Below, piece after piece: positions 8,702-41,722 of a stretch of DNA of 42,615 nt. Numbering within the stretch: position 1 is the stretch's first letter; every line of letters begins with the position of its first letter. The notes beneath the pieces were generated by a model. That model made no database searches. It saw nothing but the letters and a program-made list of their open reading frames with translations, and was not told the origin of the DNA. The stretch covers positions 1-42,615 of the forward strand of contig CAMWNH010000010.1 of assembly GCA_947175605.1 (NCBI GenBank), in the 5' to 3' direction. Made by a program: the position numbers and the translations under genes. This DNA comes from an uncultured Porphyromonadaceae bacterium (lineage in GTDB: Bacteria > Bacteroidota > Bacteroidia > Bacteroidales > Muribaculaceae).

Positions 8702-9454
8702 TTACACAATATGAAACAATTCCCGCAGCAGATTTGTGCACTCCTCCATGGATTTTAATTCAATATCCGCCCCTGCCTCGAGTAGAGCGCCGTGCGGGAT
8801 CGGGCCCGTGTTCACCCCGATTGTGAATGCCCCGGATTCCGAGGCGCTGCGAACGCCCAGCGGCGCATTGTCCACGGCTACTACGGCTTCCGGGACTATT
8901 CCGGCGCCGGCTTTCTCCCGCCCTTTTATGAAAGGCTCCGGATCGGGTTTGCCGTGCGAGACATCGGCTGCCGTTACGCGCCGTCCGGATGGAAAAGCTT
9001 CGGGAAACTCGGCGTCGAGGCGCTTCAGCAGCGAACTCTGGCCCGAGCCCGTTACGAGCACGGAGGGAATCCCTTCTGTCCGGCAGAGGTCGAGCGCTTC
9101 CCTCGCGCCGGCCATGGTGTCCACGGGCGGCATCTTGCGGAAGAGTTCCGATTTGCGGGCATAGAGCTTTTCTATTTCCTCTGTACTTGCCTCCCGCCCG
9201 TAAGTGCGCCGGAATAGAATGTTGATGGTCGAAGCGCCTGTGCGGCCCTCGTAAGCGAAAAACTCCTCCTCGCTGGCCGGTATGCCGTTTTCGTCGCACA
9301 TGCGCTTCCATGCCGCGGCGTGTCCGGGCATGGAGTTGAACAGCACTCCGTCCATATCGAACAGCACGGCTCGTGGAGGCTGCGGAAGCTTTCCCGTGCG
9401 CCTGCGGTAGCGCTCGATGGCCTCGGCTATAGTGTGTTTGTCAGGCTCAGTCAT
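8702..9454 (-). CDS. HAD-superfamily phosphatase (beta-phosphoglucomutase-like subfamily)
   Basis: A 250-aa HAD hydrolase. The catalytic motif I FDMDGVLFNSMP (nucleophile D33, acid/base D35), motif II SVLVTGSGQ, motif III lysine in HGKPDPEPF, and motif IV VVAVDNAPLG are all present, with a helical cap of the C1 type between I and II. This pattern fits phosphoglycolate phosphatase or beta-phosphoglucomutase-like enzymes; the exact phosphate ester is unknown. An N-terminal extension of about 28 residues precedes motif I. It overlaps the AsmA-like gene by ATGA (9451-9454) and precedes aroB. Confidence 0.9.
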   Translation of the reverse strand: MTEPDKHTIAEAIERYRRRTGKLPQPPRAVLFDMDGVLFNSMPGHAAAWKRMCDENGIPASEEEFFAYEGRTGASTINILFRRTYGREASTEEIEKLYARKSELFRKMPPVDTMAGAREALDLCRTEGIPSVLVTGSGQSSLLKRLDAEFPEAFPSGRRVTAADVSHGKPDPEPFIKGREKAGAGIVPEAVVAVDNAPLGVRSASESGAFTIGVNTGPIPHGALLEAGADIELKSMEECTNLLRELFHIV

Positions 9455-12400
9455 TCCTTTTCGAGTTTCAGTTTCTTACTTGTCACAGCTTCGCCCGTGG
9501 GAGGTGTTTTGTCCTTGCGGCGCGATTTCTTGTCGGAGGCTTTTCCGGTCTTCGTGCTCTGTGTCGCACCGGCGTTCAGCTGTGCTTTTGCTTCGATTTC
9601 CTCTTGTGTGAGTGTGGATTCGAGCATGCCCTCGCGCATGAGGGCCAGAGAGTCGGATGCCGACAGCTCGGGCTCGGTCTCGAGTTCGGCAGACATGCTG
9701 CGGCGTGCCGGAGAGGATCCGGTATTGATCCGTGCGAAGCGACTGGCGCTCACGCCCCTGCGGAATATATTCTGGATCTGTGAAATCAGGTTCACGCGTG
9801 CCGTGTCCACAATGGCAACACTGGCTGCCGGAGCGTCCGACTTGAATCTTGCGCCTCCGAACCGCACCTTGTACTTGTCAGGATTGCCCTTGATCGTGAT
9901 GCCGAACTTGAAGGGGATGGGCGACTTGAGCACGGCGATATGGTAGTCGAAGTTCATGTTCAGGTCGTTGTAGCCCTGCACGCCAAGGCGGTAGCGGTCG
10001 ATGTCCAGCATGAAAGGATAGATCTGCAGCACATCGTCCGAAACGGTCAGTTCCACATCCAGATGCTTGATGATGTTCGAATTCTTGTCCTTGAAGCCGA
10101 GCCACTTGCCTATGGTGCGATAGGTCTTGGAGTCGATGAACTGAAGCGAATCGCCCTGCAGGCGCACGGCGGCATCCAGCGTCGGGAGCACGAGATTCAT
10201 GGCCGAGTCGATGTCGCAGGTGGCTGCAATATCGGCGGAGATGATTCCTCCGAAATCGCGCATCAGCGGCATTATCGAGTCGATGGTGGGCACGAGGTTC
10301 AGGAAGCGGCGGATGTCGAAGCGATTGGCGTCAAGACCGAATCCGAATTTCATATTGTCCGGCGAGGGAGCGCTGTAAAGGGCATCCAGCGTAAGCGAAC
10401 CTATGTCCGACGTACAGCGCAGGTCGTGCAGATTCACGGCGCCGTTGTAGAGCAGTATGTCGCCCTTCAGATCGCTCATGTTGAGGTCGGAGTAGAAGAT
10501 CGAGTCGGCCACCACGTGCAGCTGTCCGTCGATGTTGGTGGGCAGGAGGAGCGGTCCTGAGCTTGTAGTGTCCGCCAGGGCGTCGAATTTGCGGTCCATC
10601 TCATCCTCTGAGCCCTCAAGATCGTCAAGCCCGAAGTGTATGGCTCTTCCATGTCGGGCTCGCTCGGTGTAGGCCGCTCCGGCAAATGTAGCCGCGGCCA
10701 GCTCGTTGATGTCGATTTTCCGGCTCACGACCTCGAAATTGGCCTTCAGCGCACTGGTGTAACCTGCGGAGGTGAAGCCGCGTCGGATGTTGGATATTAT
10801 TCCGTTTAAGGTCAGGTCGCTGCGTCCTCCTCTATAACGTAGATTCGTCACGACGATAGAGTCCGTGGTGAAGGCTATGTCCACATTGGATATGCGGTTG
10901 CGCAGGGGGAAGGCCGGCGTGTACAGGCGGGCTTTGCGCGTGGAGATGCGGCCATTGATGCGCCAGCGCGTGAGGAATTCGCGCAGTGCGCTGGTCGTGC
11001 CCCATTCTAAGGTCTGTCGGTCGCCGTCGACAAGCTCAGTATGCACGCGGTGATGCACCTTCTCGCCCGGGCGATGCTTACGCTTGGCGATTGCCAGCGC
11101 GAGCACCGAATCTGCCGACAGCTCCGGATGCTCCTTCGCAAGCTTGCGGAGTTTGCGCGCGTGTTTCTCCTCGGCCGTGCGCGAATGCACTTTGTGTGCC
11201 TCGACCTTTATCGTAGGCTCGAGCAGCATAACGCGTGCCGCCGGAGCTCCCGCAGCGATGCGTCCGGCCTTCACGTCCAGCGAGTACTGGGCCTGTCGGC
11301 TGCGGTTCTTGTATCGGCTGATTCCCACGTGGCCTTCGAGATTCCGCAGGCGCATGCCCGCCGAGTCGCTCACGGAAGTAACGTTGAAGCGCCCGAGCTT
11401 GAGCATGCCGCCCAGGGGCACCACGGTCGTTGAATCCAGAGTGGCCATGGAGCGCGTATTCTCCACACCCATCCCCAGCGAGAGCGCTCCGAGAGCTATG
11501 TCCACACCACCGGAAAGAATGTTGGCCGTGTCCACGCGCAGCGACGCGGCCAGCGAGCGTGCCGATATGCTGTCGGCGCGCCGTATCTGCACGTCCGATC
11601 CGAAGCGCAGGGCCGCATTGCCCACGCTGGCCATCAGATTGGTGTCGTTACGCAGGTAGTAGAGATCCTTGGCGTCGATGCGCCCCTTCACGTCGAGACG
11701 GTGTATGTTCTCCTGCGCGAACATGCTCATGCTGCCGTCGAGATCCACATCGGCGTCCACCGTGCCGGCAATGTATCCGTTGGCCATGTCGGCCACTATC
11801 GCCGGCAGGAGTTCGAGCCGTGTCTTGATCTTGACACAGGTGCTGAATGCCGGGTCGGTTTGCAGGCCGTCCACGCGTCCCCGGACTTCGATCGTCGTAG
11901 CCGGGCCCGAGGCCTCGAAATTGCGGATTTCCACGGATGCCGAATCGAGGTCGTTGCCGCCGAGCCGCACGCCCAGGTCCAGAGCCACGCGCCGGAGCTG
12001 CATCTTCCCGTAGTCGAGAGTTGTGAGGGGCACGGCAATGTCCACGACAGCTGCGGGAATGGAGTCCACGGCCGGCACGAAGGGCCGCGTAAGGCGTGCC
12101 GAAAGCGATATGGTGGCCGGCGTGTGTAGGCTTCCGAGACGGTATTGATCGCGCATCTCCTCGGGCACGAACTGCAAGAGCGAATCCACCGGCACGGGAT
12201 CGAGCGCGATGTCAGCCGAGCGCACGGACATCACATCGCTGAAGTCCACCTCGGTCGATACCCTCGCTGCGAGGAAAGCCCCCCTGACACTGAGGGATTC
12301 AAGCGCTACGAGGGCCGGTGTAGATGGGTCCCAGCGCACCTTACCATCGGCTCCGAACGTGATGTTTTCAAGATTTATCATCGCTCCGGCCAGTGGCGAA

Positions 12401-39641: not shown

Positions 39642-39664
39642 TTAGAAATCAGATATTCTCCGCA

Positions 39665-39695
39665 AGCAGCCCGGCAATCAGCCGGGCTGCTTTTT
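39665..39695 (+). terminator. Intrinsic terminator of the susC operon
   Basis: AGCAGCCCGGC (39665-39675) pairs perfectly with GCCGGGCTGCT (39681-39691) around AATCA and runs into TTTTT, 24 nt after the last stop codon. Confidence 0.95.
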
Positions 39696-39770
39696 GCATC
39701 AATAATACCCGCCCTTGGATGGTGGAGTGGAATCCCCCCCCCTGTTTATTGAGCTCAGTTGCGGGCTGTC

Positions 39771-39803
39771 GTTGGCGACGTTCCAAGCCCACGTCCGTAC
39801 AGG
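39771..39803. repeat. Dispersed intergenic palindrome, copy B (inverted)
   Basis: GTTGGCGACGTTCC at the left end recurs with one change at 41408-41421, and ACGTCCGTACAGG at the right end is the exact reverse complement of positions 109-121. The first 30 nt align without gaps to the reverse complement of copy C. It lies between the susC-operon terminator and the promoter of the S24 gene; a run of nine C (39734-39742) is nearby. Confidence 0.6.
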
Positions 39804-39850
39804 GCGTGTGGGGGTGTTGCCGTTAAATTTGTTGTCGTGCAGGGGGAATA

Positions 39851-39882
39851 TTTGCGTATTTCAAATTTTTGACGTATCTTTG
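39851..39882 (+). promoter_or_regulatory. Consensus Bacteroidetes promoter of the S24-membrane protein unit
   Basis: TTTG (39851-39854), a 20-nt spacer and TATCTTTG (39875-39882) match the -33/-7 consensus at every defined position. This is the best promoter in the window and leaves a leader of about 27 nt to the ATG at 39916, so the unit has its own strong housekeeping-type start. Confidence 0.8.
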
Positions 39883-39915
39883 AGCGCTATTTTAAATTAA
39901 CGACTTATTTGCTTG

Positions 39916-40593
39916 ATGAACAAGGTTCTGAAGTCGATCATTGCATTGATTGACGATTGGATATCTATAAATTCCTGGGAGGACAAGAATTGGCACGCAC
40001 CTTCGTGCTGCGTAGCTGCCGGAGATCCGGCGTATGGGTCGCAGACAGGCGGCGACCGGGATAATCTCCCTCCATATGTGAGGGTGAATGATGAGCAGGT
40101 GGAAACCGCAAGATATATGAATCTTATTGTAGACGGTTCTTCCATGTCGCCGGAAAGGATTTCGAACGGGGATTTTCTCTTGTGTACAAAAATTGGGGAT
40201 GAGGAGCGAGAGAATCTTGGCTATGGTGAGCACGTCGTTGTAAAAACCGACAAGGATTATTATTGCAAGAAAAATAAGCCGGTAAGGTTTGACTATAAAC
40301 TGCGCCGCACGATATGCAAGGTCAAGGCGGGGGAGACCTATGAGCAGTTGGTGGAGCGGATAGAGAGCGAGAATCTGGAAGATTCGATTTTTTTGTCGGC
40401 TAATAAGAAGATGCTGAAGGAGAAGTTTTCTGAAAGCCACAAATATTATGATTTTTCCAAGTCCATGATGCTCTCCGCAACATATAGGGACGGCGAAATC
40501 CGTTATTCATTCCATCCTGTTTCGTTGATTGAGTATAAGGCGGATTATGTTGTTTCGCCTACAAGGGGGATGAATAATACCCGCAAACTCTGA
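39916..40593 (+). CDS. S24-like (LexA/UmuD-type) autoprotease domain protein without DNA-binding domain
   Basis: A 225-aa protein. Residues 33-38 (VAAGDP) resemble the Ala-Gly self-cleavage site of LexA (A35-G36); DGSSMSP at 73-79 supplies nucleophile S76, SNGD at 83-86 is the following conserved turn, and GEHVVV at 104-109 leads to K118, the expected catalytic lysine. Site-to-Ser (41) and Gly-to-Lys (15 positions) spacings fit the family. There is no HTH: only about 34 residues precede the cleavage site. Residues about 125-225 form an unrecognised extension. A TTG lies just before, but ATG 39916 is taken as start. Base use is AT-richer than in the neighbours. It is coupled to the membrane protein gene 9 nt downstream. 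A UmuD role is unlikely as no umuC follows. Confidence 0.75.
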   Translation: MNKVLKSIIALIDDWISINSWEDKNWHAPSCCVAAGDPAYGSQTGGDRDNLPPYVRVNDEQVETARYMNLIVDGSSMSPERISNGDFLLCTKIGDEERENLGYGEHVVVKTDKDYYCKKNKPVRFDYKLRRTICKVKAGETYEQLVERIESENLEDSIFLSANKKMLKEKFSESHKYYDFSKSMMLSATYRDGEIRYSFHPVSLIEYKADYVVSPTRGMNNTRKL

Positions 40594-40602
40594 TTCGAAG
40601 TT

Positions 40603-41316
40603 ATGACGCTGATGGATTGTGTCAATCTTTTGGCATTTATTCAGATTGCCGTGGCATTCGACTTTGGGTTGCTATATCTGCATAACTCCCATTTGTTGAA
40701 GTCGTTGCATGGCGATTTTATATATGGTCATAGAAACAGGGTTGAGCCTACGACTTGTTGCGCTTGCGATATATTGAAGGACTTAAAGTATAAACATGGT
40801 TTTAGTGTGAAAATCAGGCGGGGCTCGTTGAAGAGATGGGTGGATCGTCTGACGTTTCTTACTGATGTGCAGCAGGCCAACTGGAGCAAATATGTTTATT
40901 TGGGGCTCTGCGGGGGCTTGTATTCACTTCTGTCGTTAGTGTTGATAGGTGTTACGGGATCTTCTTATGATCCGGAGATCCGGAATTTCCTTCTTGTTTC
41001 AGGTGAGGTGTTTTTGGTGTATGAATTTTTTATAGTATATCAAATCGGGAAGGTGAGGACCAACGGAATTTCGGTTATTCCATTGGTTAAGAAGGCGATA
41101 CTTCTGATTGTGATCATGGGGATTGTGGGAGTTTTTGTGTATAATGGTTGGTATTTTAAATTTTTCTCCAGTTTTCGGAAAACTTATATAGTGCTCTTGT
41201 TTTCAATTGTTTACTTCCCGATTTTTGTATATTTATGGAAAATGTGGGAATTAAACCGCAATATTGCCAAGGCAAAAAAAGAGTGCGAGAGATGGATCAA
41301 AGACGATAGTCAGTGA
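40603..41316 (+). CDS. Unrecognised five-helix membrane protein
   Basis: A 237-aa protein I do not recognise. Hydrophobic segments lie at about 5-26, 97-118, 127-148, 160-182 and 192-213. Between the first and second is a roughly 70-residue polar, basic loop with a Cys cluster (TTCCACDILKD, C52, C53, C55) and KIRRGSLKRWVDR. The C-terminal tail is charged and helical (NRNIAKAKKECERWIKDDSQ). Codon use is AT-rich like that of the S24 gene, with which it shares the promoter (9-nt gap), so both probably arrived together and work together. It could be a pore, a transporter or a membrane-anchored partner of the protease; sequence alone does not decide. Confidence 0.72.
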   Translation: MTLMDCVNLLAFIQIAVAFDFGLLYLHNSHLLKSLHGDFIYGHRNRVEPTTCCACDILKDLKYKHGFSVKIRRGSLKRWVDRLTFLTDVQQANWSKYVYLGLCGGLYSLLSLVLIGVTGSSYDPEIRNFLLVSGEVFLVYEFFIVYQIGKVRTNGISVIPLVKKAILLIVIMGIVGVFVYNGWYFKFFSSFRKTYIVLLFSIVYFPIFVYLWKMWELNRNIAKAKKECERWIKDDSQ

Positions 41317-41358
41317 GCTGAAACTCAAATGGTGTTTGCCGGAATCGGGAGCTAACGG

Positions 41359-41383
41359 TCGACTAATTCGCTGAATTAGTCGA
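41359..41383 (+). repeat. Perfect inverted repeat after the S24 unit
   Basis: TCGACTAATTC (41359-41369) and GAATTAGTCGA (41373-41383) are perfectly complementary over 11 bp around GCT, about 40 nt after the membrane protein stop. No T-run follows, so it is either an operator, a mobile-element end or a factor-dependent stop. Confidence 0.7.
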
Positions 41384-41407
41384 AGTGGGGTGATTTATGA
41401 GGGAGGC

Positions 41408-41421
41408 GTTGGCGACGTGCC
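41408..41421. repeat. Dispersed intergenic repeat, partial copy D
   Basis: GTTGGCGACGTGCC matches the left end of copy B (39771-39784) at 13 of 14 positions; the other half of the repeat is missing and is replaced by the tandem array. Confidence 0.5.
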
Positions 41422-41500
41422 GGTTTCGCAGGCCGGTTTCGCAGATCGGTTTCGCAGGTCGGTTTCGCAGGTCGGTTTCGCAGGCCGGGGTTTCGCAGGC
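41421..41500. repeat. 13-bp tandem repeat, six units
   Basis: Units of the form CGGTTTCGCAGGC start at 41421, 41434, 41447, 41460, 41473 and 41486. Units 1 and 5 are identical, 3 and 4 end in T, 2 ends in AT, and unit 6 has two extra G. The unit is too short and lacks spacers for CRISPR. Confidence 0.92.
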
Positions 41501-41613
41501 CGGGAGGCCTACGATCCCGGAAGGGGGGGATTTGGATTTGGATTTTTGGAGTTTTTGTTGTAATTTTGTGGTGCGAAACCGCGTGGCGGGTTTGCTGTGG
41601 AAAGATTTGGCTG

Positions 41614-41644
41614 CTTGCAACCACTCGAAAAAATGCTAAAATTG
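41614..41644 (+). promoter_or_regulatory. Possible promoter of metK
   Basis: CTTG (41614-41617), a 19-nt spacer and TAAAATTG (41637-41644) match the Bacteroidetes consensus with one mismatch per box. It would give a leader of about 130 nt that contains the terminator hairpin at 41723. Confidence 0.4.
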
Positions 41645-41722
41645 CCTTTGATTCAGGTGCTTGCTCTGCGCATCGGGGCTGTGCGCCGGCGAGGGCGGCT
41701 TTTTGAGACTTTTTACGGCTGA

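Follow-up and report, generated by a model that had tools for sequence, protein, structure and literature searches.

A mobile gene pair of an S24-type protease and a membrane protein in Bacteroidales as a candidate self-cleavage switch

Introduction

Self-cleavage by S24-type proteins, which RecA filaments usually stimulate, is known for switching genes or polymerases. A soluble sensor gene followed by a membrane effector gene is the arrangement of lambda RexAB, in which RexA is, to our knowledge, not a protease. For IrvR of Streptococcus mutans, the excerpted text of one study reports that a degron is exposed upon self-cleavage and that cleavage occurs without RecA (PMC7101444). Here, we analyse a two-gene unit in a stretch of DNA, referred to as the window, that corresponds to all of contig G000:C10 (42,615 bp), part of a 2.24-Mb genome from an uncultured bacterium of the Muribaculaceae (Bacteroidales). 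The first gene encodes an S24-type, presumably self-cleaving protease that lacks a helix-turn-helix (HTH) and the second a membrane protein with predicted transmembrane (TM) helices. Within the S24 family the pair represents a new variant, and no description of such a pair was found in the open-access literature searched.

Results

The two open reading frames (ORFs) of the unit (Table 1) are separated by 9 nt, and the two-gene unit proposed in a preliminary description of this DNA is thereby borne out. The protease matches Pfam Peptidase_S24 (PF00717) over residues 33-119 with 27.7 bits against a cut-off of 23.3. The absence of an HTH, which had been read from the sequence, was upheld in that no DNA-binding family matched the window protease in Pfam and further family-profile searches, and only 32 residues precede the S24 domain.

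In the genus, one of 49 genomes carries the pair, namely the window's own (completeness is 90% or higher for 33 of the 49); the counts are 5/397 in the family sample and 4/393 in the order sample, own genome included each time, and 3/296 in the phylum sample, where the two matches besides the window are short and fall on LexA-like proteins. The family of G651 gave 13/251, six of them full-length and seven short matches to UmuD-, LexA- or S24-type proteins. Three of 72,556 plasmid records matched, the two annotated ones reading S24/S26 family peptidase and hypothetical protein, and a type-B protease query (see below) found no match in plasmids. A membrane-alignment search of the genome-contig collection returned four loci, all paired and two of them already in the set; a single-protease search of that collection found no relatives. 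The short matches (L014 and L015 from the phylum, and L029-L035), which on reading are ordinary LexA/UmuD/S24-type proteins, were omitted before counting, and L033 and L034, apparent copies of L029 and L032, were also kept out of the comparison alignment. The resulting set comprises 16 loci, with plasmid copies counted once, and 15 distinct proteases, L038 being omitted because its protease is identical to that of L037. Merging L006 with L009, L037 with L038 and the plasmid copies leaves 14 independent loci.

These loci fall into two architectures. In type A (window, L006, L009, L007, L008, L011/L016, L021/L022 and L036) a soluble protease gene is followed 4-16 nt later by a five-helix membrane gene, and a partner of the same kind is found in 8/8 loci (frame-changed in L011). 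In type B (L004/L019, L005/L020, L012/L017, L013/L018, L037, L038, L039 and L040) the protease has an N-terminal TM helix and the preceding gene encodes a protein of 137-175 aa for which three or four TM helices are predicted, reduced to a 71-aa piece in L005. The A-G bond of type B lies 8-24 residues past the predicted TM helix, which is followed by basic residues (in L039 they are on both sides); read from loop charge only, this points to an inside location. When nine ordinary S24 proteins are included in a FastTree tree, A (8 proteins) and B (7 proteins) form separate clades with support of 0.85 and 0.76, respectively. Between L006 and L009, dN/dS is 0.10 for the protease and 0.11 for the membrane gene (own Nei-Gojobori script), and the pair is under purifying selection.

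A membrane gene adjoins the protease at every family locus found, as a check on conserved adjacency had called for. This constancy counts against a UmuD-like DNA-repair accessory with an incidental membrane neighbour, as does the presence in the genome of another S24 protein that is UmuD-like: a genome-wide PF00717 search returned L041 (UmuD-like) and L042 (HTH-type), the window protease not being listed. Moreover, no umuC was seen among the neighbours read (no profile search for umuC was made), in line with the preliminary statement that the protease gene is followed by a membrane gene instead. We consider a UmuDC-like repair unit very improbable.

The alignment of the 15 proteases has 12 invariant columns (M1 included) at a median identity of 22.5%; these include A35, G36, S76 and K128, a degree of conservation that is more than chance. 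The cleavage bond and nucleophile named beforehand are thus present throughout the family, and so is a Ser-Lys pair, but the conserved lysine is not the one proposed. Column 118 reads KKRAEKSFA--K-KR, whereas column 128 is lysine in all members, and in the structure model K118 lies at the end of a helix and K128 on a strand. Given that its column is not conserved, we reject K118, for which the spacing argument had been fair for one sequence; based on alignment and model, K128 is most likely the catalytic lysine.

The structure model also places the window protease in the S24/S26 fold, and a match to LexA covers residues 30-216. Consequently, the C-terminal extension of about 100 residues that had been described is not an appendage, and we reject a separate C-terminal domain: residues 142-178 form an insertion within the fold and are followed by strands at 184-213. 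The window protease has no TM helix (Kyte-Doolittle maximum 0.74), and the predicted local distance difference test (pLDDT) score stays under 50 at residues 1-8 and 11-25. P0023, the single type-B protein tested, had no Pfam match at E 0.01. In an alternative reading, the protease acts in trans, like a signal peptidase, on its membrane partner or other membrane proteins. Signal peptidase acts outside, whereas the basic residues after the type-B TM helix suggest a cytoplasmic domain. The invariant A-G bond (15/15) is as expected for self-cleavage, and the alignment of type-A partners contains no conserved A-G. Action in trans therefore appears decidedly unlikely.

The five helices predicted for the second protein were found as hydrophobic stretches at residues 6-24, 100-118, 130-148, 161-179 and 196-214. 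The successive loops contain 0, 13, 1, 2, 3 and 6 lysine or arginine (K/R) residues, and because of these counts the sequence suggests an N-out, C-in topology with the 75-residue basic loop inside. Over six loci, 13 of the 18 codons of TM helix 1 vary only synonymously, one is identical and four alter the residue, which indicates that the constraint acts on the protein; L036 and L011 depart further from the motif. Whole partner proteins are 27-40% identical to that of the window. The window membrane protein had insignificant matches only (Pfam E 0.33, PHROGs 0.23, NCBIfam 0.45) and none in PADLOC, its model is poor (pLDDT 60), and no homology was detectable between type-A and type-B partners (hhalign 0.2%). 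The type-A membrane gene adjoining AbiH shifts frame inside (L011 1150-1455 / L016 6304-6609, minus strand), which reflects either gene decay or an error in assembly; the membrane alignments were made without the L011 membrane gene.

The pair is a horizontally moving unit. Its upstream neighbours are genes in which SusC plug and SusD domains were recognised, together with a SusE-like ORF that has no Pfam match; downstream lies metK with its riboswitch. In G037, the nearest by metK among 29 other congeners searched, roughly 470 nt separate metK from the SusE-like ORF, which was judged to be the same gene from reading and a 44-nt blastn match, and this interval contains no pair; the two sequences become similar again from window position 41588, at the riboswitch. 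The G+C content is 0.457 for the protease gene, 0.402 for the membrane gene and 0.549 for the window. A tandem array of 6.4 copies of the 13-nt unit GCCGGTTTCGCAG occupies window positions 41419-41503, between the membrane gene and the riboswitch.

The consensus promoter noted before the pair was confirmed. TTTG-N20-TAnnTTTG is what we take to be the Bacteroidota promoter consensus, and TTTG-N18-22-TAnnTTTG has three matches in the window against 0.20 expected, one of them just before the pair. Matches of this type end 19-33 nt before the first gene in 5/15 pairs (window, L006, L009, L017 and L037, of which L006 and L009 are near copies), with a chance of at most 0.035 per region; promoters directly before these pairs suggest independent expression.

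Strong defence matches are directly adjacent at five of the 14 independent loci: (i) KAP NTPase PDC-S49 at L006, the same gene being present at L009, (ii) AAA ATPase PDC-M29A with PDC-M29B at L007, (iii) AbiH at L016 (Pfam E 3.7e-25, PADLOC 8.7e-7), (iv) PDC-S71 at L020, and (v) FRG PDC-S15 at L021, with PDC-S49 also two genes upstream in L022. At L036 the adjacent gene is a GNAT gene without PADLOC match, and an MNT/HepT pair (PDC-S09) lies further off. The PADLOC scan covered a subset of neighbours, 27 ORFs up to about four genes away (7 chosen by eye plus 10 plus 10), and yielded eight defence matches, two apparently non-specific ones (beta-galactosidase and RecA) and 17 ORFs with none. Among the pair proteins themselves, P0001 and P0013 had weak best matches in PADLOC-DB (GajA, E 0.02, and Cas6, E 0.0035), P0002, P0014 and P0023 had none there, and none of these proteins was assigned to a known anti-phage system.

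The neighbourhoods bear on two alternatives. Six of the 14 loci (L006/L009, L007, L008, L016, L036 and L019) lie amid glycosyltransferase, flippase or export genes, a setting read by eye from ORF translations in which the L019 flippase alone was checked, and confirmed by Pfam. This would fit a surface-polysaccharide accessory that senses the envelope or controls capsule synthesis through regulated proteolysis, and hence resides in capsule loci. However, the other eight lie elsewhere, including a ribosomal operon, type VI secretion system (T6SS) regions, a site next to recA and the SusCD-metK site, and five of the 15 pairs have consensus promoters of their own directly before them; we regard such a role as unlikely. 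Three of the 14 loci, L022 (TssD annotated), L039 (TssD and VgrG by Pfam) and L037/L038 (by eye), are in T6SS regions. The excerpted text of a study of Bacteroidales T6SS reports that effector and immunity genes occupy the divergent regions and that in two strains all of them encode TM segments (PMC4714493); the membrane protein could accordingly be a membrane-acting effector or a shield against one. No T6SS gene was recognised beside the pair at the other 11 loci, window included, and the best NCBIfam immunity-family match of the membrane protein is insignificant (E 0.45), which makes a T6SS-linked effector or immunity unit quite improbable.

Three neighbourhoods deserve separate mention. The type-B pair at L018 1742-3900 (G632:C394), with a four-TM partner, lies within a ribosomal protein cluster on the same strand, between presumed rpsJ and rplC, and that at L017 1716-4049 (G638:C3) lies 1.2 kb upstream of presumed recA on the same strand. 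Near the type-B pair in the T6SS region of L037, a gene at 8784-9476 (minus strand) matches Pfam 8xMP (octameric membrane protein family, E 9.6e-21), and the 874-aa protein beside it has no Pfam or PADLOC match.

Table 1. Features of the two-gene unit and its surroundings in window coordinates
Feature	Position	Strand	Basis or remark
Type-A protease of 225 aa, S24 type, lacking an HTH, presumed self-cleaving	39916..40593	+	ORF, Pfam, family alignment, structure model
Membrane protein of 237 aa with five TM helices predicted; loop charge suggests N-out/C-in	40603..41316	+	ORF, hydrophobicity
Bacteroidota-type promoter TTTG-N20-TAnnTTTG (presumed consensus)	39851..39882	+	pattern match; also at same distance (-65) before the L006 and L009 pairs
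N-terminal 35 residues, helix predicted at 3-16, VAA as last residues before presumed cut	39916..40020	+	structure model
A35-G36, presumed self-cleavage bond	40018..40023	+	invariant 15/15 family members
S76, presumed nucleophile, in GSSM	40141..40143	+	invariant 15/15
K118, lysine of the preliminary description, not conserved	40267..40269	+	family alignment
K128, presumed general base, in YKLRR	40297..40299	+	invariant 15/15; on strand 127-136 of model
Helical insertion inside S24 fold, residues 142-178	40339..40449	+	structure model
C-terminal family motif S187-x-T189 ... Y197-S198-x-H200, protease residues 187-200	40474..40515	+	five residues invariant 15/15
Strongly conserved TM helix 1 CVNLLAFIQIAVAFDFGL	40618..40671	+	codon comparison over six loci
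K/R-rich loop of 75 aa, TM1 to TM2, presumed cytoplasmic, 13 K/R	40675..40899	+	
Region absent from the corresponding site in G037, largest extent; lies between SusE-like ORF and metK leader	39642..41587	.	
SAM-II riboswitch directly before metK; inserted pair precedes it	41591-41649	+	Rfam RF01726, 60 bits, E 1.7e-10

Discussion

The computation supports the fold, the invariant catalytic set, the constant pairing, mobility, purifying selection and defence neighbours at some loci. Combining these data, we suggest, tentatively and with somewhat less than even confidence, that the pair is a mobile, autonomously expressed two-gene switch in which a self-cleaving protease controls a membrane effector of abortive infection. 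The pair would be steadily expressed from its own promoter, and the N-terminus of the protease, in place of binding DNA, would tether it to the membrane or the partner, the predicted TM helix serving this purpose in type B; the product of the second gene would be a dedicated membrane partner. A stress or infection signal, for which RecA filaments are a candidate as the natural co-protease, would set off self-cleavage at A35-G36 with S76 as nucleophile and K128 as base. The N-terminal piece would end in VAA, as in LexA, which reads VAAGEP around the A-G bond in the alignment, and may be exposed to ClpXP and lost. The cut would separate the protease core from its tether and release or activate the membrane partner, which would then arrest growth or kill the cell, most likely as anti-phage abortive infection. 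The two proteins and the conserved site are read from sequence; we infer cleavage, its trigger, control of the partner through the tether, a toxic or defensive output and the order of these events, and defence as the function is our leading guess rather than a result. The switch put forward in the preliminary description stands in outline with respect to fold, cleavage set, lack of an HTH and pairing; its lysine and C-terminus do not, and the TM-anchored architecture of type B lay outside the sequence it covered. None of the three outcomes named there as refuting the model was obtained, although the lysine of the Ser/Lys pair is a different one.

Several observations weigh against a self-cleaving, tethered defence switch. 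Profile alignments place the LexA lysine at K118, a Foldseek search with the protease model gave no match at E 0.001, and signal peptidase I scores equal to LexA in VIA (9.1), where absence of a family from the list does not by itself exclude it. Type-A N-termini are amphipathic at shuffle p < 0.05 in only 4/8, which gives the idea of a membrane tether in type A a weak basis, and the VAA end is limited to type A. The membrane profile has a partial match in G1245 (E 4.6e-4) inside a 554-aa frame. No relative was found in viral contigs, nor in phage records with the protease query, the only one used there. The call to locate homologues relative to defence islands is answered only in part: next to the five loci with adjacent defence genes stand 9/14 without a strong match directly adjacent, the first seven neighbours were chosen by eye, and non-specific PADLOC matches occurred in 1/10 distant control genes and 2/10 further neighbours. 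Finally, CTAA-N5-TTAG and GGA-N5-TCC do not occur exactly within 250 nt upstream of the 15 pairs, and a single 1-mismatch match precedes the L039 pair.

With exact boxes missing before all pairs, SOS-box control has no support. The excerpted text of one study gives these two motifs as SOS boxes from the phylum and reports the Bacteroidales to be without both ortholog groups of the non-canonical Bacteroidetes LexA regulators (PMC8565304). Given the missing boxes and the reported lack of these regulators, post-translational control of the pair is the simpler reading.

It is conceivable, although we consider it rather doubtful, that the pairs represent a damage- or phage-sensing pathway of the Bacteroidales in which a LexA-like protease acts directly on the membrane with no transcription step, in two sister clades that have unrelated partners and a tether made of either a TM helix or a soluble N-terminus. 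If so, the reaction that elsewhere switches genes or polymerases would release a membrane effector, providing Bacteroidales with a way to respond to DNA damage or phage infection without transcription and their mobile cargo with a new module. The proposal offers direct targets for experiments: one bond, two catalytic residues and one partner.

Among known systems, lambda RexAB resembles the pair by analogy of working, a soluble sensor with a membrane effector. Type I signal peptidase (S26) differs from the pair, in which the A-G bond is invariant and the predicted location is cytoplasmic. IrvR shares LexA-like self-cleavage and, in the excerpted account, combines it with degron exposure and independence from RecA; unlike the window protease, it is a DNA-binding repressor (PMC7101444). 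The non-canonical Bacteroidetes LexA proteins are S24 proteins of the same phylum with the A-G bond and Ser-Lys pair of the proteases described here; the excerpted source describes them as HTH repressors (PMC8565304), whereas the pairs lack an HTH and are preceded by neither SOS box in exact form. LexA, UmuD and CI are like the window protease in fold, A-G bond and Ser-Lys pair. In contrast to these, the window protease lacks an HTH, has the helical insertion at 142-178 and is partnered by a membrane gene, its family's conserved lysine lies ten residues past the LexA spacing, and the C-terminal S-x-T...YS-x-H motif is invariant in the family.
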